From assembly GCA_001790855.1 (NCBI GenBank), contig MGDH01000011.1:246245-264400 (forward strand): DNA of 18,156 nucleotides, read 5' to 3'. The notes under the pieces are model-generated. The model made no database searches. It was not told where the DNA came from and worked only from the letters and a program-made list of their open reading frames with translations. The position numbers and the translations under genes are program-made. Below, piece by piece: positions 3,775 through 18,156 of the stretch. The stretch is from Candidatus Schekmanbacteria bacterium RIFCSPLOWO2_02_FULL_38_14. GTDB lineage: Bacteria > Schekmanbacteria > GWA2-38-11. Position 1 is the stretch's first letter. Every line of letters begins with the position of its first letter.

Positions 3775-4461
3775 TCACTTCAGTACCTCTAAAATCTCTC
3801 TATCCTCACTCTCTTTTAATCCCTCTCTTATCTTTTTCTGCCATTTTTGAGGAATTGAATTAAAAACATTTTTTATGATGCTTGATTCACCTTTATTTAT
3901 TAGTATTTTTAGAATCTCAATAGCAACATTCCTGTCTTTAATAGCTTTTTCTTTTTTTAACCTCCGCTGAAAAATTATTAGCTTGTGCAAAGCAAAGTTG
4001 GCGGGATGTGGCAGAGTTAAATAAAAACCTTTCATTCTAATCTTTATGGTATTACTTGATAAAAAGTTCAGAAATCTCAAAGGAGTAGCGTTTAAACCGA
4101 GTTTTGGCAAAGGATAAGGTTTATTTATACTTTTGCCTTTCTCCGGAACTAAAAATTCAAGGATAAGATTTGGATGGTCAAGTTTAATATATCCTTTGCT
4201 TCTATTAAAGATGGTAACAAAACCTAAGTCTTTAAGAAGTTCTGGTATATCTACTTTATTTCTTATTTTCGAAGGGTCGTTTATCAGAAAATCAAGGTCT
4301 CTTGTTTTAAGAGTCGCTTGGTCAATATATGGAACATTAGAAAAATAATCTTTATAAAAGTAGACACACCAGCTGCCTATTAGAATAAAATTGTCTAATA
4401 TGCCTGCGTTATGAAAGCGGGTTAATATTTCAAGACACAACTCAGATTGCTTCTTTTCCAC
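3775..4461 (-). CDS. Nucleotidyltransferase-fold protein, second gene of a small operon
   Basis: A 228-residue protein with a complete DNA polymerase beta-type nucleotidyltransferase core: GSW at 29-31, TRDLDFLI giving catalytic D55 and D57, and a third acid E102 in LEFLVP. This arrangement fits GSU2403/AbiEii-like stand-alone nucleotidyltransferases, which add nucleotides to RNA or protein and often act as toxins or as enzymes in defence or toxin-antitoxin loci. The C-terminal half (about 130-228) is helical and lysine-rich. Translation starts at GTG (4461-4459), preceded by AAGGAG eight to nine bases upstream. It overlaps the end of the preceding gene by 20 bases, so the two are translationally linked. 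The upstream operator-rich promoter supports an autoregulated module. Toxin activity is inferred, not shown. Confidence 0.68.
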   Translation of the reverse strand: MEKKQSELCLEILTRFHNAGILDNFILIGSWCVYFYKDYFSNVPYIDQATLKTRDLDFLINDPSKIRNKVDIPELLKDLGFVTIFNRSKGYIKLDHPNLILEFLVPEKGKSINKPYPLPKLGLNATPLRFLNFLSSNTIKIRMKGFYLTLPHPANFALHKLIIFQRRLKKEKAIKDRNVAIEILKILINKGESSIIKNVFNSIPQKWQKKIREGLKESEDREILEVLK

Positions 4462-4762
4462 GGAGAGAACTCCTTAAGAACCTAATTTGTTTTTTTACTT
4501 GAGATAATAGCTGTCTATATTTAGCCCTTAGTATTTTAGCTTCTTCATATTTCTTTTTTTCTTTCCCTGATATTTTCCCTCTATAAATATGTTTTACTTT
4601 TTTTCCTTCTCTTTTTACCAAATAATAATACTCATGGCCTTTTATTTTTTTAATAGAAATACATCCTTTAGGTAATTTTCCCAAGACTTCATCGTATTCT
4701 TTTTTCATACGAAGAGAGTTCTCAAGTTCTTCTGCTAAAACTCCTTTTATTACTCCTCTCAT
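4442..4762 (-). CDS. Small basic protein of unknown function, partner of the nucleotidyltransferase
   Basis: I do not recognise this 106-residue protein. It is very rich in Lys and Arg. Residues 1-30 and 65-103 look helical, the second with coiled-coil character (KKYEEAKILRAKYRQLL). The middle (about 33-58) looks like a beta hairpin around GHEYYYLVKREGKKVKHIYRG. It has no HEPN R-x4-6-H motif and no obvious helix-turn-helix. Its ATG is preceded by AGGAGA with four to five bases spacing. It is the first gene after a promoter loaded with four operator-like repeats, and its 3' end overlaps the nucleotidyltransferase start. The size, charge, gene order and operators suggest an antitoxin, autorepressor or RNA-binding partner. 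This is inference from context only. Confidence 0.6.
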   Translation of the reverse strand: MRGVIKGVLAEELENSLRMKKEYDEVLGKLPKGCISIKKIKGHEYYYLVKREGKKVKHIYRGKISGKEKKKYEEAKILRAKYRQLLSQVKKQIRFLRSSLRGKEAI

Positions 4763-6199: not shown

Positions 6200-7585
6200 T
6201 TAATTTCTATCTGCCATGTGTCCAACCATAATATTACATGAAGATTTTATAAGAGAAAAAAACACTTTGGGTTTAAGCACCCTGTGAAAAATCGCAAATG
6301 AAAATATTTTCCAGAAAGATGACAGGTTATAGAATTTGCGGTATATAGCCTTTCTTATTTTCTTAAGGTCTGCAACAGAGTAGGTATCAGAATAAACCCT
6401 TCCTCTTTTATCCAACTGGTATCCATTAAGTTTTTTTATCACATTATACAATGGAGCATACTGAGAACAACGCAGATTGCTGACACCTATTGAATGGAGC
6501 CCTATCTGTTTTGCAAAACCTGCAATACCAAACATCTCATCCCTTGTTTCCTCAGGAGAACCAATTATAAAGTAGCCGTGGTAATACATATCATGTTGTC
6601 TTAATACACTGAAGCATTCTCTTGCTTCCTCGATTGTGAAACCTTTATTGAATTGCTTTAATATCCTGTTCTGTGCCGACTCGATTCCAAACAGCAGAAC
6701 CTTAAACCCTGCTTTCTGCATTTTTCTGATAGTTTCAGGGCTTTTAGCCACATCTACTCTTGCATTGGCAGTAAACATCTTATTAACTTTTTCACGTATC
6801 AGGATATCACAGATTTCATTTACTCCTTCTGTGTTAAAGGTGAAGTTCTCATCAAGAAATATTATCACATCTGATTTAATACTCTTGATTTCCTTAACCA
6901 CAGTTTCAGGAGACCTTCCTTCCCACTTTCGCCTTCCTCCTCCTGCTGAATTATTAAAGGAGCAAAAGGAGCAGTTGTAAGGACATCCCCGCGAAGAGAA
7001 TATTCCGTCAACTGTATATCCAAAATCAAATCCATTGCTAATCAACTTGTACTCGTACTTTCTCAGGCTCCTGTCTATTATAAAGTAAGGGTCAAGTTTC
7101 TCTAGTTTTCTATAAGGGTTGTGGATGATTTCTCCTTTATTTCTGTAAGAAATTCCCTGTATCTCGCTCAGCGGCTTATTCTCTATAATCTCCCTTATTG
7201 TATTCTCTCCGTCACCCTTAACAATTATGTCAATATTAGGACATTCACTGAATAAATTATCCACATCATCCGTAGCCGCCCTTCCGCCAACTATTGTAAA
7301 GATATCAGGAGGAATTTCCAGTATACGTCTCCTGACATTATTCTTCTCCTGATCCCAGTTTACGCTCACACATGCAAGGTCCGGCTTGTTCTTAAAAAAA
7401 TAATTCAATCCATTCTTTTCATATCTGAGGTCAACAATACTTACCCTTTCACAGGATTTACTCAAAACAGTGGCTATGTATTCAAGCCCCAGCGGAGGCA
7501 TAAACCCCATTGAAGCCAGCTCTTTTTTATAAGGGTACATACAGAGCGCATTTTTAAAACGAGGATATGTATTGCTTATTTCCAT
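6200..7585 (-). CDS. Cobalamin-binding radical SAM enzyme
   Basis: A 461-residue protein with the class B radical SAM layout. The N-terminal Rossmann-like B12-binding domain (about 10-140) contains PPLGLEYIA, VDLRYE, IVGGRAAT and VKGDGENT. The radical SAM barrel follows, with the [4Fe-4S] motif RGCPYNCSFC (C201, C205, C208 counted from this start). Later barrel motifs are FLDENFT, TANARVD and LFGIESAQNRIL. The C-terminal part (about 385-461) is hydrophobic and basic and could touch the membrane. Relatives methylate or rearrange unactivated carbons in lipids, hopanoids, antibiotics and tetrapyrroles. ATG at 7585 is preferred because GGAG lies six bases upstream; the upstream TTG at 7597 overlaps that site. 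It is the last gene after the SMR-like transporter gene, 54 bases away. The substrate is unknown. Confidence 0.85.
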   Translation of the reverse strand: MEISNTYPRFKNALCMYPYKKELASMGFMPPLGLEYIATVLSKSCERVSIVDLRYEKNGLNYFFKNKPDLACVSVNWDQEKNNVRRRILEIPPDIFTIVGGRAATDDVDNLFSECPNIDIIVKGDGENTIREIIENKPLSEIQGISYRNKGEIIHNPYRKLEKLDPYFIIDRSLRKYEYKLISNGFDFGYTVDGIFSSRGCPYNCSFCSFNNSAGGGRRKWEGRSPETVVKEIKSIKSDVIIFLDENFTFNTEGVNEICDILIREKVNKMFTANARVDVAKSPETIRKMQKAGFKVLLFGIESAQNRILKQFNKGFTIEEARECFSVLRQHDMYYHGYFIIGSPEETRDEMFGIAGFAKQIGLHSIGVSNLRCSQYAPLYNVIKKLNGYQLDKRGRVYSDTYSVADLKKIRKAIYRKFYNLSSFWKIFSFAIFHRVLKPKVFFSLIKSSCNIMVGHMADRN

Positions 7586-7639
7586 TCCAGACTCCAAAAA
7601 ACATCTGCCTTGAAACGTTTCTTAAGCTTATAGCCAAAG

Positions 7640-7990
7640 TTATTTTTCTTCTTTGTCCTTATTGCCCCAGTTTATGATAAAGATACCTGATGAAATAAGA
7701 ATTGTCCCAATAATGATTTTATCTGTTATTACTTCATCAAGGAAAATATAAGAAACAATGGCAACAGTTATGTAAAGAACGGATGCTGTTGTTAATGCTA
7801 TGGATAGTTTTGTAGATTTTAAAATCTGCATCCATGCAATAAAAGAAAAAATATAAAAACTATAACCAACGATTATAAGATAATTAATCTTTAGCCCTGA
7901 TGATGGAAGGCTCACAGCCCCCATCTTTAACAATAGCTGTGCAATAGTATCTGACAATATCAGTAAAACCCAGTAAAAAAGAGTTTTCAT
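7640..7990 (-). CDS. SMR/EamA-like four-helix transporter subunit (first of two)
   Basis: A 116-residue membrane protein with four hydrophobic segments (about 3-23, 35-56, 62-84, 91-110), the size and shape of small multidrug resistance proteins and ArnE/ArnF-type undecaprenyl-phosphate-aminosugar flippase halves. D14 in LSDTIAQLLLKMGA takes the place of the membrane-embedded Glu of EmrE. The tail ends in charged residues (GNKDKEEK). It is the first gene of a leftward pair with the radical SAM enzyme. It diverges from the arginase-fold gene, with a 107-base very AT-rich gap that must hold both promoters. A second SMR-like gene lies at 12107-12466, so the two may form a heterodimer. The cargo is unknown. 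Confidence 0.7.
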   Translation of the reverse strand: MKTLFYWVLLILSDTIAQLLLKMGAVSLPSSGLKINYLIIVGYSFYIFSFIAWMQILKSTKLSIALTTASVLYITVAIVSYIFLDEVITDKIIIGTILISSGIFIINWGNKDKEEK

Positions 7991-8097
7991 TTGCTGAATT
8001 CATGTCCTAAATGTATTTCCATTCTTCCTATGTTTATTAATAAATTATATACTTTAAATTATTATCTATATTATAATAAATTGGAAGCTAAATAGTT

Positions 8098-8994
8098 ATG
8101 GACACTAAAAATAGATTTACTGATAACGACCTCTTCCGGGATGTCCTGATAATTGATTTTGACGGCTCTGTTTCTCTCCCTTTCAAAGCAGACAGGCTTG
8201 ATATGAGAAACAGGGAAGAAGAAATCCGCTATTCTGCAAGTTTTAATCATTTTAAAATTCTTGAAAATGAAATAAAAGAGCAGATTAAAAATCATAAGAT
8301 ATTTTTTCTCGGCAGTGGTGATTTTCATCATGTAAGCTACCTCTTAATAAAAAACATAATCAAAGAACCATTTCAGGTCATTGTTTTTGACAACCACCCC
8401 GACAACATGGTTTTTCCATTTGGCATACATTGCGGTTCGTGGGTATATCACGCAAGCAAGCTTCCGAATGTTTTAAATACCGCTGTATTTGGAATCGCTT
8501 CAGCAGATACAAAGGGTATTAATATCTTACAAAACCATTACTCTGCTATAAAAACCGGCAAGGTAAAATATTATTGCCTCTCCACTGTCCCAAAACTAAC
8601 AAAATTTTTAAGCAGTTATAAAATTGAAGAAAATATATCTTCAAAAAAACATATATCAGAAACTTTAAAAAAACATGTTCAAAGCACAAATGCTCCTGTT
8701 TACCTTTCCATAGACAAGGATGTACTCCGGGAAAAATCATTGAAAACAACATGGGACCAGGGAGAGCTATCAGAAAATAACCTCCTGCAATGTATCAGGG
8801 AAATACTTCCGTATGTTTTTGCTGTTGATATTGCAGGAGACATCTCAACCCATGATTTTAAAAGCCCTGTAAAAAAAATAATGAAATGGTTGGATGGAGA
8901 CAAGAAGGTTTTCCCTTCTGTTGAACAGGAACGTCTCAGGCATGAGAATTTTAATATAAAGCTTATTTCTTTAATAAATGGAATAGATTTATAA
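8098..8994 (+). CDS. Arginase/ureohydrolase-fold metalloenzyme
   Basis: A 298-residue protein with the metal-binding pattern of the arginase-agmatinase superfamily: LGSGDFHHVSYLL (H77 or H78) in place of GGDHS, VFDNHPDNM giving the D98-x-H100-x-D102 triad, and YLSIDKDVL giving D206 and D208. WDQGELSENNL sits where family members have the PGGL segment. All expected Mn ligands are therefore present. The family hydrolyses C-N bonds in guanidines, amidines or related amides. The divergent substrate loops give no reason to call it arginase proper. It is the only rightward gene inside a leftward cluster, and its TAA shares a TTATAA with the stop of the FemAB-like gene. SD is weak (GGAAG). Its position suggests it acts in the same pathway; that is inference. 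Confidence 0.68.
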   Translation: MDTKNRFTDNDLFRDVLIIDFDGSVSLPFKADRLDMRNREEEIRYSASFNHFKILENEIKEQIKNHKIFFLGSGDFHHVSYLLIKNIIKEPFQVIVFDNHPDNMVFPFGIHCGSWVYHASKLPNVLNTAVFGIASADTKGINILQNHYSAIKTGKVKYYCLSTVPKLTKFLSSYKIEENISSKKHISETLKKHVQSTNAPVYLSIDKDVLREKSLKTTWDQGELSENNLLQCIREILPYVFAVDIAGDISTHDFKSPVKKIMKWLDGDKKVFPSVEQERLRHENFNIKLISLINGIDL

Positions 8995-10101
8995 ATTGCT
9001 GTCAAGTTTTTCAATTATACGTTTATCTGATTCAAATAATGACTTGAACCTCGTTAAAACAAATCTCAGAACAGGGTTTTTGATATAAACAGCGTGATAG
9101 GTGTATGTAAACCTTGCGCCAAGGTAAGACTTGATTTCAGGGTCAGTCCAGCCAGCTATATATGTCTTAATATTATTTTCAATGCAGTAGCTTAAGTTAT
9201 AAAACCAGCTCAGAAAATAAAGGTTATATTCCAAGGCTTCAGGATAAAGGAAGCCTATGTATTTATCAATCAGATAATCCTGAACCATAAAACACAGATT
9301 GTAGCCTATAACCTTATCCTGACTTTTATAGAGAAAAACCATTCCATTGTTTTCTTTGTCGGTTAAAAGTTTTTTGAAAAACTGATATGTCAGCTTATCA
9401 AAATGGATCTTGCTGTTTTCATATACGTCAAGATAATATTTATAGAGAAGCTCTATAGTTTCTTCATTAAAAAACTCATCGCCTAAAGGAATTTTACTGA
9501 TGCTGACCTGAGGGAAAACCCGGAGTTTCCTCTTAAAATCCTTTCTTCTTGACCGTGAAAACCTGCCAAGATATTCATCAACAGAACTGAAATCAATCTG
9601 CACATAAGCCAATGCCTGGCCAAAGATGACCAAAAACCCGCTCTTTTCAAGGTATGAAATTAACTTTTTTGAAAATTCATTCTCAATCCCTGAAAGAAGA
9701 GGAGATTCAGAAGGAATGTCCTTAAATATAAGAAACTTTAAACCCGTCTCTTTTAATCTTTTAAAGGCAGAATCCTTAAGGCTTTTTAAATCGGTTCCGC
9801 TTGGGAACAAGGCATATTCAGAAACCGTGGTGCCGACAAAAAATACTTTTGGTGTAAAAAAATTTTTAACAAACCCGGGAATCAGTTTTCTGTATTTTTG
9901 AAACAGCCTTTTAACACTTTCATCTGCAGTGATAAAAAGGTCCAGCTCCGCAAGGAATCCAGGAACATTCTTGCTCTCCACCTCAAGAATAACAGGATCA
10001 AACCCTTCGGGCGGATTATTCAAAAATCTGTTTACTACCTCTTCTGGTTCAAGAAGGTTAAGATATTTTTTCGTGTTATTACAGACCATGCCGGAATACA
10101 T
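8989..10101 (-). CDS. FemAB/GNAT-like acyl- or aminoacyl-transferase
   Basis: A 370-residue protein of the FemAB-like GNAT group (Acetyltransf_6/DUF482-like). Typical features are the basic segment FSRSRRKDFKRKLR (about 182-195), then VIGYNLCFMVQDYLIDKYIG and a C-terminal acetyltransferase strand-helix region ending near KSYLGARFTYTYHAVY. The N-terminal half (1-160) is a less conserved GNAT-like lobe. Such enzymes transfer amino acids or acyl groups to amines of cell-envelope precursors or exopolysaccharides. The start ATG at 10101 lies two bases after the stop of the DegT-like gene, so translation is coupled; no Shine-Dalgarno is visible. It is the last gene of the long leftward operon. The acceptor may be the amine made by one of the two upstream aminotransferases (inference). 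Confidence 0.7.
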   Translation of the reverse strand: MYSGMVCNNTKKYLNLLEPEEVVNRFLNNPPEGFDPVILEVESKNVPGFLAELDLFITADESVKRLFQKYRKLIPGFVKNFFTPKVFFVGTTVSEYALFPSGTDLKSLKDSAFKRLKETGLKFLIFKDIPSESPLLSGIENEFSKKLISYLEKSGFLVIFGQALAYVQIDFSSVDEYLGRFSRSRRKDFKRKLRVFPQVSISKIPLGDEFFNEETIELLYKYYLDVYENSKIHFDKLTYQFFKKLLTDKENNGMVFLYKSQDKVIGYNLCFMVQDYLIDKYIGFLYPEALEYNLYFLSWFYNLSYCIENNIKTYIAGWTDPEIKSYLGARFTYTYHAVYIKNPVLRFVLTRFKSLFESDKRIIEKLDSNL

Positions 10102-10103
10102 TT

Positions 10104-11324
10104 TTATAAATCAGCCAAAATGTTTACAACCATATCCAAATCTTTTTTCTTCAGGAATGTACTTGTAGAAAGTGTAATTTCTCTATCTGTCAGGTAGCGG
10201 GCATTTGAGCAGTTGCTGTCAGGAATAATCTCTTTTAAATAATAGTAATCAGATATGGCACAGGCATAAATTTCTGATACGCCGAATCCTGAGGATTCAA
10301 GGCTTTCCAAAGCCTTCTTTTTTTTCCCCTTATCATCAAAAATTAATGTCACAAAGGGATAAACAGCCATTGTTTCCGGCAATTCCCGGATAACATTCAC
10401 CCCTTTTATATTCTCAAGCCTTTCAATGTAATAAGAGGCTTTTTCTCTCTGTTTTCTGATTTCATTCTCCAGACGGTTAAACTGGCTATGCCCTATAGCT
10501 CTTCTTGCTTTTGAAACCCTGTGTAATGGAAAATTGATTGTAAAATATTCTGACAAAGCCTTAACCTTGTTCCCTCTCCAGTTCCAGAAAATCTGTGGAA
10601 GCCTGAAAACCAGCCAGAACAAACTAGGGCGGTAAAATATCCAGTAACCTATCATTTTAATAACAAGCAGAGCCTCGGAAATAGAATCTATTTTCACCAG
10701 ACTCTCTATTGTTTCATCAATAAGAGTTGAATGTTCCTTTCTGTTTGCAACAACAGCCCCACCTTCATAAATAGTAATCCCTTTGCCCCTGCACATACTG
10801 AAAAAAGAAAAATCACCAAGTGTTCCTGCTTTTTTCCCTTTGTATACCGCTCCCAGAGACTGTGCGCAGTCTTCTATGGTAAATATTCCATATTTTTTTG
10901 CAACATCATCTATTGCATCAAACTCAAGCGGAATCCCTGCAAGGTGAACTGCAACAATTGCCAAAATATCTCTGTTAAAGGAACATAATTTTTCCAGCAT
11001 TGAAGAGGAAAAGTTAAAATCGCTTTTCCTTATGTCACACACAGCAATTTTCAGTCCTGCCCTTTTTATGGCAAGAGGGATAAGGGGACAGATATAGGAA
11101 GGAATTATGATTGTTTTTTTTGTTGATATTTTTTTTAAACTCTCAAGAATAAGATAAAAAGAGGCAGTCCCGGAACAGGTTATTCTCACATAACTGGCAT
11201 CAAGAAACCGTCTGAAGTCTTCCTCAAGAAGGTCATCTCTATTATCAGCTTTTAATGACAGGAATAATTCTTTTATCTGAAGAGTAAATCCGGCAGTTGG
11301 AGGAATCTCTCTAAATATGCTCAT
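10104..11324 (-). CDS. DegT/DnrJ/EryC1/StrS-family aminotransferase
   Basis: A 406-residue PLP enzyme. SGTASFYLIL (51-60) is the phosphate-contacting start of the fold. TIEDCAQSLGA carries D152 and Q155 that stack on and pair with the pyridine ring. GDFSFFSMCRGKGITIYEGG carries the Schiff-base lysine K181. This RGK variant of the usual motif and the intact EGGAVV segment fit sugar or cyclitol aminotransferases of this family, which use glutamate or glutamine as amino donor. An insertion at about 205-260 contains a hydrophobic stretch (LLVIKMIGYWIFYRPSLFWL) that is unusual for a cytosolic sugar aminotransferase and may attach it to the membrane. Its start overlaps the end of the alpha/beta hydrolase gene by 14 bases. 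The substrate is unknown. Confidence 0.85.
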   Translation of the reverse strand: MSIFREIPPTAGFTLQIKELFLSLKADNRDDLLEEDFRRFLDASYVRITCSGTASFYLILESLKKISTKKTIIIPSYICPLIPLAIKRAGLKIAVCDIRKSDFNFSSSMLEKLCSFNRDILAIVAVHLAGIPLEFDAIDDVAKKYGIFTIEDCAQSLGAVYKGKKAGTLGDFSFFSMCRGKGITIYEGGAVVANRKEHSTLIDETIESLVKIDSISEALLVIKMIGYWIFYRPSLFWLVFRLPQIFWNWRGNKVKALSEYFTINFPLHRVSKARRAIGHSQFNRLENEIRKQREKASYYIERLENIKGVNVIRELPETMAVYPFVTLIFDDKGKKKKALESLESSGFGVSEIYACAISDYYYLKEIIPDSNCSNARYLTDREITLSTSTFLKKKDLDMVVNILADL

Positions 11325-12102
11325 TAAAAAAATTGATGGTTTCCTGTGAAACCAATTCTCTTTTGTTGTCTACTGTAATCATGTGATAACAGTCGTCTAT
11401 CAGTATCTTTCTAACCCTGTCCGAGCCTATGTTTTTTTCAACAAAATCCGCATTCCTGATACTTGCAACATCATCCTCAAGTGAGTGCAGAATCAGAGTT
11501 GGGATTTCAATTTTAGGCAGAAGTTTTCGCACCATCTTGCTGAACTCAAGCAATTCATAAAAACATTTAAATGGAATTTTTGTGTGTGCTATATTTTTTT
11601 CATTCATCAGGCGGACAACATGTTTTCTAAGCAAAGCATTTTTTATCCCGTAAGGTTCTTTTTCCCTGTATGAATAAAAATACCTTAGAGGGGTGTAATA
11701 AGCCAGAGGTATAAAAATCCTGTACCATGGGATGCTCCATCCGTCATAAAAAAGTGTTGTTGACATAAGGGATATCGCTGATACCTCGCTCCCAAGTTCA
11801 CAAGCTGTGTAAAGGGCTAAAACTGCCCCCATGCAAAGCCCTGAAACAAAAACCTTGTCATGGGTTTCTTTAAGGATATGAAAAGTATTGAGGATAGATT
11901 TGTGCCAGTCTTTCCACGAAGCATTTGAAAGGTCACTCAGAGATGACCCATGTCCGGCAAGGCACGGGACGCTTACTGAAAATCCAGCCTTGTGCAGTTT
12001 CTTTGCCAGATAGTTCATCTCAAAAGGACTTCCGGATAATCCGTGGATTAAAAGGACGGCATTTTCCCCGCCATTCAGATTTATATCATCTGTATTAGAC
12101 AT
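11311..12102 (-). CDS. Alpha/beta hydrolase with Cys nucleophile
   Basis: A 263-residue protein of the carboxylesterase/monoacylglycerol-lipase type. IHGLSGSPFEM (19-29) forms the oxyanion hole. The nucleophile elbow reads GLCMGA, with Cys90 where most relatives have Ser (codon TGC). D210 in LHSLEDDVAS and H240 in DDCYHM complete a Cys-Asp-His triad. The cap region (about 117-185) is aromatic and basic (YYTPLRYFYSYREKEPYG), which suggests a lipid or acyl substrate at the membrane. Cys nucleophiles occur in dienelactone hydrolases and in some acyl-transferring hydrolases of biosynthetic clusters. It may act as a transferase or thioesterase rather than a plain esterase (inference). It lies between the SMR-like and DegT-like genes with four bases gap and 14 bases overlap. 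Confidence 0.82.
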   Translation of the reverse strand: MSNTDDINLNGGENAVLLIHGLSGSPFEMNYLAKKLHKAGFSVSVPCLAGHGSSLSDLSNASWKDWHKSILNTFHILKETHDKVFVSGLCMGAVLALYTACELGSEVSAISLMSTTLFYDGWSIPWYRIFIPLAYYTPLRYFYSYREKEPYGIKNALLRKHVVRLMNEKNIAHTKIPFKCFYELLEFSKMVRKLLPKIEIPTLILHSLEDDVASIRNADFVEKNIGSDRVRKILIDDCYHMITVDNKRELVSQETINFFNEHI

Positions 12103-12106
12103 ATTA

Positions 12107-12466
12107 CTAACCTGCCTGTACTATTACTGCTATACCCAATGAGGTTATTGCCACCCCGATCCATTCAGTTTTGCTTATTTTTTCTTTCAGCACAAAAAGT
12201 GAAAAAAGTATTATGAATATTTTCTGGATTCCTGTCAGAGGAAAAGCAATTGAAAGTGGTATATAGGAAAGAAGAACTATCCATATAACCATCTCAACCA
12301 GATATGACAATATGCCAATTATAACCCATTTGTTCTTTAGCAGCTTAATGTAGTATGCTAACCCATCTGTCCCGCTATGAATTCCTGCTCCTTTTTTGAG
12401 GCATATCTGTGTAACGCTCTCCATAGCAGCTCCGGTTATAAAAAGAGGAATCCATTTGATTATCAT
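12107..12466 (-). CDS. SMR/EamA-like four-helix transporter subunit (second of two)
   Basis: A 119-residue protein with four membrane segments (about 5-24, 47-67, 71-93, 99-117). E16 in MESVTQICLKKGAG matches the essential glutamate of EmrE-type proteins and aligns with D14 of the SMR-like protein at 7640-7990. LSIAFPLTGIQKIFIILFS, then EKISKTEWIGV, matches the helix 3/loop/helix 4 pattern of SMR and ArnE/ArnF proteins. The gene is separated by four bases from both neighbours (aminotransferase and hydrolase), so it is certainly co-transcribed with them. The likely role is flipping or exporting an amphipathic amine-bearing intermediate; cargo unknown. Confidence 0.75.
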   Translation of the reverse strand: MIIKWIPLFITGAAMESVTQICLKKGAGIHSGTDGLAYYIKLLKNKWVIIGILSYLVEMVIWIVLLSYIPLSIAFPLTGIQKIFIILFSLFVLKEKISKTEWIGVAITSLGIAVIVQAG

Positions 12467-12470
12467 TGTA

Positions 12471-13853
12471 TTAGTTCACGCATCTTTTAATCAGTGATTC
12501 AAATAAAGTGATGAATAAATCCATTTCATCATCAGTTATTGTCAGTGCTGGAGCAAGAGTAAACACATTTTTATAGTATCCGCCGACATCCAGAACCAGA
12601 CCATATTTTTTGCCATTAAACTTTATGTCACCCTTCATTCCTTCCTGAAAAATCCTGTCAGTAAGTTCTCTGTCCGGTGTAAATCTGTCAGATTTTGTCA
12701 GCTCTATCCTTATTGCAAGTCCCAACCCGTCTACATCTCCTATCACTTTATATTTCTTCTGAAGTTTCTTTAACCTAGATATTATATAACTTCCTTTTCC
12801 CTTTACAGTCTTTTCAAAATTATTTTTTTCTATAAATCTCATTGTAGCAAGTCCGGCTGCTGTGCCAAGGGGATTGCTTGAAAAAGTTGAATGTGTTGAC
12901 CCGGGAGGAAACATTTTTGGATTAATCAATTCCTCTTTTGCCCAAAGACCTGAAAGCGGATTGAGCCCGTTTGTAAGGGCTTTTGCAAATGCAATCACAT
13001 CAGGTTTTACATTGAAGTGTTCCATTGCCCACATTTTACCGGTCCTGTAAAATCCCATCTGTATCTCATCATCCACAATAAGGATACCATATTTTTTTAG
13101 AATCTTTGAAAGCCTTCCAAAGTATTCAGGAGGCGGTACAATATAACCACCTGTTGCCTGCAAAGGCTCTATGAAAAATGCGGCGTACTCAGCTTCTTTT
13201 TCCTTTAAATCCATAATCCCATAGTATTCTGTCTCAAAATGTTTTTCAAATTGCTTTATGCATTCATATTTGCAGCTATTGCGGTTTTTGTCATAAAAAC
13301 ATCTGTAGCAGTATGGGAAAGGAACAAAAAATGCCCTATTGCTAAAATGTCCGTATCTTCTTCTGTATCTGTAGCTGCTTGTAATCTCTGATGCGGCTAA
13401 TGTACGGCCGTGATACCCGCCCATAAACGCAAACATCAGGGATTTCCCTTTCTTATAGTTGCGCACAAGTTTCAGGCTGTCCTCAATAGCCTGTGCCCCG
13501 CCAACATTAAAATGCACCCTTCCCTTTGTTCCAAATCTTTTTTCTGTTTCTTTTGAAATGGCTGATGCAAGCAATATCTTTTCCTTGTGCAGATATTGTG
13601 ATGCAAGCTGCGGAAGTGTTGACATCTGCTTGTTGTATAAATTTTCTATTTCTTCGTTTTTGTATCCAAAACTAACAGCAGAGTACCACATCTGCATATC
13701 AAGGTATGGTTTATCCTTCATGTCAAAAAGCCATGAACCCTTACACTTCTTAAATATTTTTGGAACATCAAGATAGTGCACTGTATCTCCAAAAGAACAA
13801 TATTTTGCTTCAATCTCAAGAAGCTCTTTCTCTGTCAGTTCGCGTGATTCCAT
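12471..13853 (-). CDS. Class III PLP aminotransferase with a four-cysteine insert
   Basis: A 460-residue aminotransferase of the ornithine/GABA/lysine-epsilon type. Visible parts are the PLP phosphate site NVGGAQAIEDSLKL (116-129), MGGYHGRTLAA, IEPLQATGGY, the pyridine-binding DDEIQMGFYRTG (D262, Q265) and AKALTNGLNPLSG with Schiff-base K291. Residues 180-200 form an insert with C182, C185, C194 and C198, resembling the cysteine segment of GABA-transaminase-like enzymes, where a [2Fe-2S] cluster is known in some members. The closest functional types are L-lysine 6- or 4-aminobutyrate aminotransferases, but the substrate is unproven. AAGGG precedes the ATG; the gene follows the HAD phosphatase by 12 bases. 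Confidence 0.87.
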   Translation of the reverse strand: MESRELTEKELLEIEAKYCSFGDTVHYLDVPKIFKKCKGSWLFDMKDKPYLDMQMWYSAVSFGYKNEEIENLYNKQMSTLPQLASQYLHKEKILLASAISKETEKRFGTKGRVHFNVGGAQAIEDSLKLVRNYKKGKSLMFAFMGGYHGRTLAASEITSSYRYRRRYGHFSNRAFFVPFPYCYRCFYDKNRNSCKYECIKQFEKHFETEYYGIMDLKEKEAEYAAFFIEPLQATGGYIVPPPEYFGRLSKILKKYGILIVDDEIQMGFYRTGKMWAMEHFNVKPDVIAFAKALTNGLNPLSGLWAKEELINPKMFPPGSTHSTFSSNPLGTAAGLATMRFIEKNNFEKTVKGKGSYIISRLKKLQKKYKVIGDVDGLGLAIRIELTKSDRFTPDRELTDRIFQEGMKGDIKFNGKKYGLVLDVGGYYKNVFTLAPALTITDDEMDLFITLFESLIKRCVN

Positions 13854-13865
13854 TTTTTCCCTTTC

Positions 13866-14552
13866 TTATTGCAGAATGGAGATAAAACCTGCTTTACCAA
13901 GGTCAAAACTATTTTTAAGATATTTTTCAAGAACTGCTTCAATATCGCTGAAATCTTTAAAAGAGGAATGAGGAAGGTTGTTTTTCCTGCAGTAATGCGT
14001 GAGTTTTCCTTTGGAAAACGTGTATGTGACTTTTTCTGAAAGGCAAAAATCACTTCTTCCGTCGCCAATATGAAATATTTTATATCCATTACTTAACTTT
14101 TTAGCCACACTGCATTTGCATATGCCAAATGAACAGTCTTTACCACTGTATGGGAATATTGTCTTTAGACCATTACCATTGTTTTCAATTTTATTTGCGA
14201 AAAGAGGAACACCTTTTATACCCGCATTTAAAAGAATCCGTTTAATAAAAATATCAAACCCATCGCTTATGATTGCAAAAGGAATCTGATTTTCTCTGAG
14301 AAAATCTATAAACGGGAAAAAACTCTTGTTTGGAGAAAAGCAATCTACATATTCCAAAAGCCTTTCAATAGGAGAGTCTACAAGGGAAAACTGGAGAGAA
14401 AGGCATTCCCTTGAACCAATAATCCCCTGCTCCCACTGCCTTTCAATCTCTTCCCATTCGGGTTTTGCAAAGGCTTTTAAAATCTCATCAGTTATATCAG
14501 AATCAGTTATTGTCCCGTCAAAATCTATTGAAACAAATATCTTTGGTTTCAT
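13866..14552 (-). CDS. MtnX-like HAD-superfamily phosphatase
   Basis: A 228-residue HAD subfamily IB phosphatase. Motif I DFDGTITD gives nucleophile D10 and acid D12. Motif II is IISDGFD (S96). The motif III lysine is in VAKKLSNG (K151/K152). Motif IV is HIGDGRSDFC. The DSDITDEIL and WEQGIIGSREC segments are typical of MtnX (2-hydroxy-3-keto-5-methylthiopentenyl-1-phosphate phosphatase) and phosphoserine-phosphatase relatives, but no other methionine-salvage gene is present. A pathway-specific sugar- or lipid-phosphate phosphatase is therefore more likely. C140, C145 and C147 cluster in the cap/core linker. It is the first gene of the long leftward operon. Its ATG lacks a clear ribosome binding site. 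A weak TATACT on the minus strand near 14630 may be the -10. Confidence 0.8.
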   Translation of the reverse strand: MKPKIFVSIDFDGTITDSDITDEILKAFAKPEWEEIERQWEQGIIGSRECLSLQFSLVDSPIERLLEYVDCFSPNKSFFPFIDFLRENQIPFAIISDGFDIFIKRILLNAGIKGVPLFANKIENNGNGLKTIFPYSGKDCSFGICKCSVAKKLSNGYKIFHIGDGRSDFCLSEKVTYTFSKGKLTHYCRKNNLPHSSFKDFSDIEAVLEKYLKNSFDLGKAGFISILQ

Positions 14553-14677: not shown

Positions 14678-15079
14678 CTAACGCAACACTTTGGTATCAT
14701 AGAGGGTAGCTAAAGGAGGTATCCCTTTCCTTATACCAAACAATGTTCCCTCGTCTTCAATCATAGTCCATTCTGCCCATAATCCGTGTGTCTTTAGCTT
14801 GTGGTCTATCTCCTTCTGACCAAACTTCTCATTCTTTCTTCTGTCAATTATCCCTGAATATACCTTGAAGTAGGTGTCAGCCATGTTTTTGAAAAATTCA
14901 AAATCCTTTTCATCAAGCTTGAATGAATATATTCCTGCATAGCTTCCTACCTTCTCGCCTTTATAGTCCTTTCCGTGCCTCTTGCAAAGCTCTTTCATTG
15001 CATCGCCAAAGAGTTTATTATCGTTTTCATTTAAATAATACGGAAAAATATCAGTTTCTCCTGCAAGAACTATTTTGAT
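14678..15079 (-). pseudogene. 5'-truncated, divergent coproporphyrinogen III oxidase (HemF-like) remnant
   Basis: The minus-strand frame is open from 15079 to the stop at 14678 (133 codons), with a stop at 15082-15080 just before it. Only one ATG lies inside, at 14998. The translation upstream of that ATG already matches HemF: AGETDIFPYYLNEND fits the conserved GGGxDLTPYY..EED block, followed by MKELCKRHG. The 3' part IIDRRKN...EDEGTLFGI fits VERRK...DRGTLFGLQ. Compared with intact HemF (about 300 residues), the N-terminal half is gone. A stretch of about 17 residues in the middle and the C-terminal tail also appear missing. No start codon is available at the homology edge. It is either a decayed gene or a highly reduced relative; I favour decay. 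Family assignment is from remembered motifs. Confidence 0.55.
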
Positions 15080-17241: not shown

Positions 17242-17580
17242 CTATAACCCCAAGGTCTTTCGCAAGGCAATTTCAATAGATTGCATATCCTTAGGTGGCA
17301 TTACTCCTAATCTTCGATGAATCATGGATTGCTTTATTGTTCTCAAGATTCCTGTTGCTACGGAAGGGTAAAGAAGGCCTGCTTCTTTCCAGCCTGCGAT
17401 GCGATAATCCCCGGCCAATAAACGATTAACATTGCTAGTAATTGCTAAAACAATAACTTCTTTCCTACCTCGCTGATATGAGTCAGTGCTAACAATTACA
17501 GCAGGGCGATATTTTATTCCTGTCTCATCAGCGTAAATAAAACTTACAAGAACTACATCCCCTCTGTTATAAGCGGTCAT
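17242..17580 (-). CDS. MazF/PemK-type toxin endoribonuclease
   Basis: A 112-residue protein of typical MazF length. The N-terminal RGDVVLVSF and KYRPAVIVSTDSYQRG form the SH3-like barrel with the catalytic Arg (R25) region. EVIVLAITSNVNR carries the conserved Thr/Ser used in RNA cleavage, and the middle LLYPSVATGILRTIKQSMI is the barrel's PS.... .I.t... strand. C-terminal helix: SIEIALRKTLGL. MazF proteins cut mRNA at short sequences and are neutralised by an adjacent antitoxin. The start overlaps the end of the antitoxin gene by 14 bases. All expected core parts are present, so it is probably active. Confidence 0.9.
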   Translation of the reverse strand: MTAYNRGDVVLVSFIYADETGIKYRPAVIVSTDSYQRGRKEVIVLAITSNVNRLLAGDYRIAGWKEAGLLYPSVATGILRTIKQSMIHRRLGVMPPKDMQSIEIALRKTLGL

Positions 17581-17833
17581 AAGCAGAATCTTTATCGTTA
17601 TCCCATAGCTCAGCTAAAACAGGATCAGCTTTAGAGGTTAATGCAAGAATATTCTCTCTTACTTCATGCTCTTCTAAGTCTTCCTCAAGCCGAGATTCAA
17701 TAGCATGAAGTAGATATTGTCGTACACTCATATCTCGCTTGGCTGCTGCCAAACGTATACGACGACGGATTTCCTGATCCACATCTACACTGATTCTTGG
17801 TCTCTTAACAGAAGAACTCATCTCCTTTGCCAT
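17567..17833 (-). CDS. Ribbon-helix-helix antitoxin of the MazF toxin
   Basis: An 88-residue protein. After a short basic N-terminus, RPRISVDVDQEIRRRIRLAA forms the strand and first helix, and MSVRQYLLHAIESRLEEDL the second helix, of an RHH (CopG/Arc-like) DNA-binding dimer. The acidic tail ELWDNDKDSAYDRL is typical of the toxin-binding part. The start is the ATG at 17833, eight bases after AAGGAGGT. Upstream in-frame codons to 17899 lie across the promoter and are not coding. Its promoter contains a palindrome, so it very likely represses its own operon. Gene order antitoxin-toxin with a 14-base overlap is standard for such modules. Confidence 0.88.
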   Translation of the reverse strand: MAKEMSSSVKRPRISVDVDQEIRRRIRLAAAKRDMSVRQYLLHAIESRLEEDLEEHEVRENILALTSKADPVLAELWDNDKDSAYDRL

Positions 17834-17857
17834 AATATTTACCTCCTTACCCCCATA

Positions 17858-17886
17858 AATATATAGCAATAACACCTTGGTGTCAA
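17858..17886 (-). promoter_or_regulatory. Promoter of the antitoxin-mazF operon with palindromic operator
   Basis: On the minus strand, TTGACA (17886-17881) and TATATT (17863-17858) are separated by 17 bases, the same hexamers and spacing as at 4823-4795. ACACC-TT-GGTGT at 17872-17883 is a five-base-pair inverted repeat overlapping the -35. A half-match ACACCA lies at 17914-17919. The palindrome is a good binding site for the RHH antitoxin. Confidence 0.7.
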
Positions 17887-18156
17887 TGGCAATTATCAAC
17901 CTTCACTCAAAAAACACCAAAGGAGTTATGATTTTGAAAACCCCTGCAAATGATACTTCGACTGCGCTCAGTATCAACCCTGAGCAAACCTTAGCTTTTA
18001 AGCAGAGGAGTCGAATGGGTTGATTTTGCAATCCCCTGTATCAAAAAGTTTTATATTTGCAAACTCTCGCCTTATTTCTTCAATGCAAGCTATGATTTCT
18101 TAACCCTGGCAATTGCAGATAACGTTTACGTTGCAAAAGAAGCCCGAAGGGTTTGG
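17887..18156. repeat. Gene-free end region with a degenerate intergenic inverted repeat
   Basis: The last part of the window has no supportable gene. TTCGACT (17957-17963) and AGTCGAA (18009-18015) form an outer stem around an inner GCTCAG (17966-17971)/CTGAGC (17980-17985) hairpin. This is a decayed copy of the common TTCGACTGCGCTCAG...CTGAGC...GTCGAA intergenic repeat. A frame without a start codon stays open from 17995 to the window end, but nothing in it is recognised with confidence. Confidence 0.45.

Follow-up and report, generated by a model that had tools for sequence, protein, structure and literature searches.

Cationic aminoacyl lipids control how well bacteria resist antibiotics and the peptides of a host, and in many cases they also mediate association with the host. 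In the MprF system an aminoacyl-tRNA-dependent transferase of the tandem-GNAT type is paired with a lipid translocator (PMC11980842), and in the case of LpiA/AcvB from Agrobacterium a hydrolase acting on the product is encoded in the same operon as the transferase-flippase (PMC13197417). Here we analyzed a stretch of 18,156 nucleotides from contig MGDH01000011.1 of Candidatus Schekmanbacteria bacterium RIFCSPLOWO2_02_FULL_38_14 (the window; positions are counted from its first letter), in which a block at positions 6200-14552 carries nine genes. Eight of them, all but the gene for a radical SAM enzyme, form a conserved biosynthetic locus. As with MprF or LpiA together with AcvB, a tandem-GNAT transferase, a presumed lipid translocator and a hydrolase are brought together at one locus.

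All nine reading frames of the original prediction were confirmed with their coordinates and strands, and matches to Pfam and NCBIfam models upheld the family names:

13866-14552, minus strand: HAD, MtnX-like HAD-IB phosphatase of the core module (228 amino acids; TIGR01489 match)
12471-13853, minus strand: AT3, class III pyridoxal phosphate (PLP) aminotransferase of the core module (460 amino acids; PF00202, 251.9 bits)
12107-12466, minus strand: SMR1, EamA/ArnE-like small membrane protein with four transmembrane segments (4-TM), translocation module (119 amino acids; PF00892, 36.8 bits)
11311-12102, minus strand: ABH, alpha/beta hydrolase of the core module with the nucleophile Cys90 (263 amino acids; PF12146, 84.9 bits)
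10104-11324, minus strand: DegT, DegT/DnrJ-type PLP aminotransferase, accessory (406 amino acids; PF01041, 160.8 bits)
8989-10101, minus strand: FemAB, FemAB/COG3146-like transferase with a tandem-GNAT fold (370 amino acids; PF04339, 56 bits)
8098-8994, plus strand: ARG, convergent enzyme with a ureohydrolase (arginase/agmatinase) fold (298 amino acids; PF00491, 32.2 bits)
7640-7990, minus strand: SMR2, second 4-TM protein, EamA/ArnF-like (116 amino acids; EamA 24.6 bits, below the cut-off; ArnF 25.7 bits)
6200-7597, minus strand: B12-binding radical SAM enzyme, judged to lie outside the locus (orthologues in relatives without AT3)

On the minus strand the main run comprises, in this order, HAD, AT3, SMR1, ABH, DegT and FemAB. 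The predicted tight spacing of 2 to 12 bases or overlaps was found again: the gaps measure 12, 4, 4 and 2 bases, and ABH and DegT share the only overlap, of 14 bases. ARG converges on FemAB from the plus strand and overlaps its end; beyond it, again on the minus strand, come SMR2 and, 42 bases further, the radical SAM gene. The prediction had spoken of eight genes although it listed nine, but the order that it gave is real.

Within a sample of 386 genomes AT3 was present in ten (2.6%; the genome of the window and nine others), with 56-64% identity to the AT3 of the window. A profile scan with AT3 returned at least 585 coding stretches. According to the record titles the best 80 of these loci belong to Nitrospirae, Deltaproteobacteria, Acidobacteria, Alpha-, Beta- and Gammaproteobacteria (including Legionella), Omnitrophota, Riflebacteria, Gemmatimonadaceae, Methylomirabilota, Parachlamydiales, Magnetococcales and Sulfurihydrogenibium. 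Plasmid-borne copies occur in Rhizobium, Agrobacterium, Bartonella, Sinorhizobium, Phyllobacterium and Xanthomonas sacchari. Full gene sets similar to that of the window were found in several loci. Two loci of Nitrospirae (L032 and L033) contain HAD, AT3, SMR1, SMR2, FemAB, ARG and ABH. In locus L030 the genes HAD, AT3, SMR1, an acyl carrier protein (ACP), a ketosynthase (KAS), ABH, DegT and FemAB are followed by the end of the contig, and such sets are also present in L043, L067, L085, L104 and L106. On the plasmid of X. sacchari the groups HAD-AT3, KAS-ACP, FemAB-ARG and DegT-SMR-SMR-ABH all lie inside 9 kb, and the operons of Rhizobium acidisoli and Phyllobacterium read HAD-AT3-ARG-SMR-desaturase-ABH-FemAB-SMR-cyclopropane synthase. 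When we looked for homologues scattered singly over the genomes, the core showed no such pattern, and the matches to the FemAB profile in the tested AT3-positive genomes were all at the locus, at most 10 kb from AT3.

The composition of the locus was counted in 51 well-flanked loci, for which both flanks extend over 4 kb or more. HAD stands beside AT3 in 47 of these loci. Thirty-nine loci contain ABH and seven an AMP-forming ligase, and since both were never observed in one locus they look interchangeable at the third position, which is held by the ligase in Acidobacteria and Omnitrophota. HAD reaches the NCBIfam subfamily model TIGR01489 (114.2 bits; cut-off 81.55) and has conserved DxD and SDG motifs, but it is not MtnX itself (96.8 vs 303.2 bits for the NCBIfam equivalog). 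AT3 scores well above the cut-off of PF00202 (30.5 bits) and reaches none of the NCBIfam equivalogs, the best of which gave 290.5 of the required 552 bits; comparison of its profile with the PDB revealed no close characterized enzyme, an alanine/serine racemase being the top match with 253 bits. AT3 is a distinct family of class III aminotransferases, with 56-77% identity across phyla. In the alignment of ABH homologues the catalytic His and Asp are invariant, and the nucleophile is either Ser or Cys. The predicted Cys nucleophile, Cys90 in the motif GLCMGA, is thus real, but it reflects only a Ser/Cys swap inside one family, most members of which contain GLSMGA. In L024, L025 and L056 (Methylomirabilota by title) HAD-AT3, partly with ABH, lies beside genes of an apparent tetrahydromethanopterin/methanofuran-linked one-carbon pathway. 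About 30 of the loci L029-L108 have genes for sensor kinases and response regulators in the neighbourhood of AT3, a hint of envelope-stress or environmental control.

A second linked module consists of FemAB, the SMR pair, ARG and DegT. These genes are present in 21 (FemAB), 24 (SMR), 13 (ARG) and 11 (DegT) of the well-flanked loci, and the Fisher p values for their association, which are inflated by related loci, are 4e-7 for ARG-FemAB, 4e-6 for SMR-FemAB, 5e-6 for ARG-SMR, 5e-5 for DegT-SMR and 3e-3 for DegT-FemAB. With this linkage and its recurrence in distant phyla the grouping exceeds chance. FemAB and ARG go together: in all 18 AT3 loci that carry ARG, FemAB is present as well, and their pairwise distances remain correlated after removal of the AT3 distances (partial r 0.89; permutation p 2e-4). 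The two genes are therefore passed on together, with AT3 remaining in place. In Legionella (L061) FemAB and DegT are fused, in this order, in one protein. Orthologues of SMR1 are 58-76% identical in L030-L034 and L036, those of SMR2, the presumed partner of SMR1, are 50-57% identical in L032, L033 and L036, and the DegT orthologue in L030 shows 58% identity. Co-occurrence of ARG and AT3 at the level of whole genomes was restricted to the genome of the window among the 386 sampled genomes. A deviating arrangement exists in L110, a plasmid of Bartonella sp. HY038, where AT3-FemAB-ARG has no adjoining HAD or ABH; the opposite strand next to it encodes a DltB-like MBOAT protein, possibly replacing the acyltransferase, and a hypothetical protein without match.

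FemAB exceeds the Pfam cut-off of PF04339 (27 bits) and matched no NCBIfam model at an E value of 0.1. The structure model (pLDDT 92.6) is a single globular tandem-GNAT protein, and its best fold matches (VIA) are Sba18/Sbb17, MprF/L-PGS and FemX, with Z values of 16-18.5 over 246-285 residues. ARG passes the PF00491 cut-off of 22 bits and is not an agmatinase equivalog (TIGR01230, 22.8 vs 174.3 bits). The metal-ligand motifs GSGDxHH, DxHxD and DKD are invariant in 16 sequences, and the model of ARG matches the folds of agmatinase and proclavaminate amidinohydrolase. In L132-L141 shorter lone arginase-fold proteins, about 27-33% identical to ARG, were found in unrelated genomes and contexts; these relatives constitute a wider uncharacterized ureohydrolase group with motifs of the DNHPD/DKD type.

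The surroundings of the locus point to an amine-bearing lipid made in an acyl-ACP-dependent manner. ACP genes with a site of the GLDSLD type and KAS genes with an intact C-H-H triad adjoin the operon in Nitrospirota and others, and the KAS proteins of the Nitrospirota, Xanthomonas and Rhizobiales-type loci score below the cut-off for housekeeping FabF. Fatty acid desaturase and cyclopropane fatty acid synthase are encoded inside the operons of Rhizobium and Phyllobacterium. In Legionella L061 a single protein comprises a fatty-acyl-AMP ligase (FAAL), ACP and ABH, with AT3 and HAD adjoining on the opposite strand. Proteins of about 1000 amino acids ending in ABH are encoded in L061, L070 and L090 (Legionella and a gammaproteobacterial metagenome-assembled genome); their domain order was resolved in L061. 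Two further observations were left aside. The ACP-KAS-glycosyltransferase group of Acidobacteria is doubtful as a part of the pathway and was not counted, as its KAS passes the cut-off for housekeeping FabF, and the ketosynthases elsewhere in the genome of the window (two FabF-like matches, 45-47%) prove nothing.

Conservation, linkage, fusions, folds and intact catalytic motifs are observations, and from these we infer substrates, step order, tRNA use, flipping and product in the following outline. AT3 would transaminate a small keto or aldehyde compound, probably a phosphorylated one, and HAD would strip the phosphate. ABH may then acylate the product from an acyl-ACP thioester, which would give an acylated amine; in Acidobacteria and Omnitrophota the AMP-forming ligase stands in the place of ABH. 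FemAB is predicted to aminoacylate the lipid at its free amine, probably with aminoacyl-tRNA as donor, and ARG might act on a guanidine group of the FemAB product or supply the FemAB substrate. Two observations suggest arginine as the transferred residue: ARG is paired with FemAB, and a GNAT of COG3146 (AlpO) was proposed as aminoacyl-tRNA ligase in the pathway of argolaphos, an arginine-containing phosphonopeptide (PMC8976061). In the simplest case ARG would release urea from the arginine once it is transferred and so leave ornithine. SMR1 and SMR2 could flip the product as a pair similar to ArnE/ArnF, and DegT may provide an optional second amination step.

We consider it likely that the product is of the lipid type. 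Lipid-type chemistry combined with membrane translocation, as the original prediction had assumed, remains the best reading, and its proposal of one functional locus that matches no findable known cluster is supported. For the outline as a whole, an amine-bearing lipid or lipid-like molecule made on the cytoplasmic side and moved across the inner membrane, the chances seem about even. The conversion of arginine to ornithine on the lipid is rather improbable as a separate proposal. The same low expectation applies to the full version, an undescribed class of cationic lipids with an amino-alcohol from AT3 and HAD, ACP-dependent acylation, FemX-like tRNA-dependent arginylation, ureohydrolysis to ornithine on the lipid and flipping by an EamA/SMR heterodimer. 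Several points weigh against the lipid pathway. The window contains no ACP/KAS pair. Many loci hold only HAD, AT3 and ABH, and the second module is therefore not essential to the first product; other genomes carry members of the ARG profile as lone genes in unrelated contexts. ABH could also hydrolyse its substrate instead of transferring an acyl group. The FemAB fold, the sole basis for aminoacyl-tRNA as the probable donor, is shared at lower Z by N-acetyl- and N-myristoyltransferases.

Alternatively, the locus could make a natural product for secretion, either lipopeptide-like or a small molecule (a signal, siderophore or antibiotic), tailored by FemAB and ARG and exported by the SMR proteins together with ABC/RND/TolC systems. 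We regard this as possible, though somewhat unlikely: genes for HlyD/ABC/TolC follow the locus on the X. sacchari plasmid and on Agrobacterium pAspH13-3a, L033 contains a gene for an outer membrane efflux protein, the folds resemble the natural-product enzymes Sba18 and proclavaminate amidinohydrolase, and plasmid carriage and patchy spread would suit a secondary metabolite. Yet the occurrence is wide and conserved across phyla, desaturase and cyclopropane synthase are part of operons, and the constant transporter is a small EamA protein and not an exporter of the MFS or ABC type. An unlikely alternative within lipid chemistry is a serinol-like diacyl aminolipid built on the amino-alcohol of AT3 and HAD, in which FemAB acts as N-acyltransferase with fatty acyl-ACP as donor, ABH acts as O-acyltransferase, and the head group is modified by ARG and DegT. 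It would agree with the context of ACP, KAS, FAAL and desaturase, with the position of FemAB in the wider GNAT/N-myristoyltransferase fold group and with the precedent of RtxA, where dihydroxyacetone phosphate (DHAP) is transaminated and then dephosphorylated (PMC3222319). This precedent has no sequence tie to AT3, and serinol via transamination of DHAP is a lead only; moreover, the best fold matches of FemAB are aminoacyl-tRNA-dependent enzymes, and FemAB is missing from more than half of the AT3 loci.

It is very improbable that no single pathway exists and that a HAD-AT3-ABH unit of another function, for example amino acid salvage, came to lie near envelope genes by chance in several lineages. 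Loci with the trio only, such as those beside the methanopterin/methanofuran-type genes, and the lone ARG-type proteins would fit this explanation, but it is contradicted by the significant linkage of FemAB, ARG, SMR and DegT at AT3 loci, by the two fusions that join parts of the set and by matching sets on plasmids of Xanthomonas, Rhizobium and Bartonella.

The radical SAM gene, which the original prediction had counted as a ninth member, was ruled out. Its orthologues are 70%, 54% and 54% identical in G001-G003, the compared genomes of the same family and order (G001 70% complete, G002 and G003 97-98%), none of which contains AT3 or FemAB, and apart from one relative with 31% identity in L088 the AT3 loci lack it. 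G001 retains RNase H, a metallo-beta-lactamase gene and the radical SAM gene in the same order without any of the eight genes; a sigma factor gene lies between the latter two and a two-component system follows the radical SAM gene. At the HAD-side edge of the block the following remnant was identified:

14678-14998, upstream to about 15100, minus strand: coproporphyrinogen III oxidase-like gene, 5'-truncated (133-codon open frame)

Only the C-terminal part is left, while the relatives in G001-G003 have frames of 265-279 amino acids, and the truncated gene may be an insertion scar. From the orthologues in G001-G003, the gene order in G001 and the truncated flanking gene, it is probable that the radical SAM gene is the older one and that the eight-gene block was inserted beside it. 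Further away in the window, positions 17242-17899 (minus strand) encode a ribbon-helix-helix protein and then a MazF-like protein, likely a toxin-antitoxin pair near the contig end. At positions 3775-4762 (minus strand) a PF12281 nucleotidyltransferase gene and a small upstream gene of an unknown family overlap by 20 bases and could represent an AbiE-like or other defence or toxin-antitoxin pair.

In the literature on combinations of its parts we found no paper describing the gene set, which is weak evidence because subscription papers were mostly outside the coverage. If the proposed pathway is correct, an envelope lipid pathway in about 2-3% of the sampled species has so far escaped description, and its carriers include Legionella, Bartonella, rhizobia, a xanthomonad, Acidobacteria and Nitrospirota. 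Annotations such as 'aminotransferase class III', 'MtnX-like' and 'EamA family' would then become a testable pathway. To our knowledge, the FemAB-ARG pair would also be the first example in which arginine is transferred to a lipid and then undergoes ureohydrolysis there.

Several known systems share parts with the locus. Synthesis of ornithine lipids (OlsB/OlsA, OlsF, OlsI) likewise joins a GNAT-type enzyme with an amino-acid lipid, and OlsI is an O-acyltransferase of the alpha/beta fold. In contrast, FemAB has a tandem-GNAT fold like FemX, the aminotransferases, the phosphatase and the flippase pair are additional, and no Ols family was matched above its cut-off (OlsI NF052614, 15.2 vs 385 bits). 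Exosortase A-associated polysaccharide clusters also contain FemAB-like proteins, alpha/beta hydrolases, AMP-ligases, ACP and PLP enzymes, but no exosortase was seen at the loci, ABH stays below TIGR03101 (32 vs 202.75 bits) and the FemAB-related PEP-CTERM model was unmatched. The tRNA-dependent tailoring enzymes Sba18/Sbb17 and AlpO provide the closest FemAB folds and the same COG in the pathway of an arginine-containing product; whereas these enzymes serve water-soluble antibiotics, lipid and flippase genes accompany FemAB here. With ArnB and ArnE/ArnF, which make a lipid with 4-amino-arabinose, the locus shares the DegT aminotransferase and the two 4-TM EamA proteins that presumably act as flippase, but it contains no gene similar to ArnA, ArnC or ArnT. 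The scores are far below the Arn equivalog cut-offs for SMR1 (ArnE 40.3 vs 92, ArnF 35.5 vs 99 bits), SMR2 (ArnF 25.7 vs 99 bits) and DegT (ArnB PRK11658, 78.9 vs 631 bits), and an Arn-like aminosugar pathway was rejected. An aminated sugar as the product of DegT was not supported: these cut-offs are missed, and DegT is absent from most loci. FemAB is also not a fusion of the MprF type, since its model is a single globular protein of 370 residues and the transporters are encoded by separate genes. Unlike in MprF, the roles of transferase and translocator fall to separate small proteins that are unrelated, FemAB matches PF04339 and not DUF2156, and a dedicated apparatus of aminotransferase, phosphatase and ACP would make the acceptor. 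By cut-offs and folds the locus is a member of neither system, and its sequences suggest that it works like MprF with a product hydrolase, or like ArnB with ArnE/ArnF. In the full but rather improbable version, with arginylation and ureohydrolysis on the lipid, it would be a split counterpart of MprF built from different proteins.

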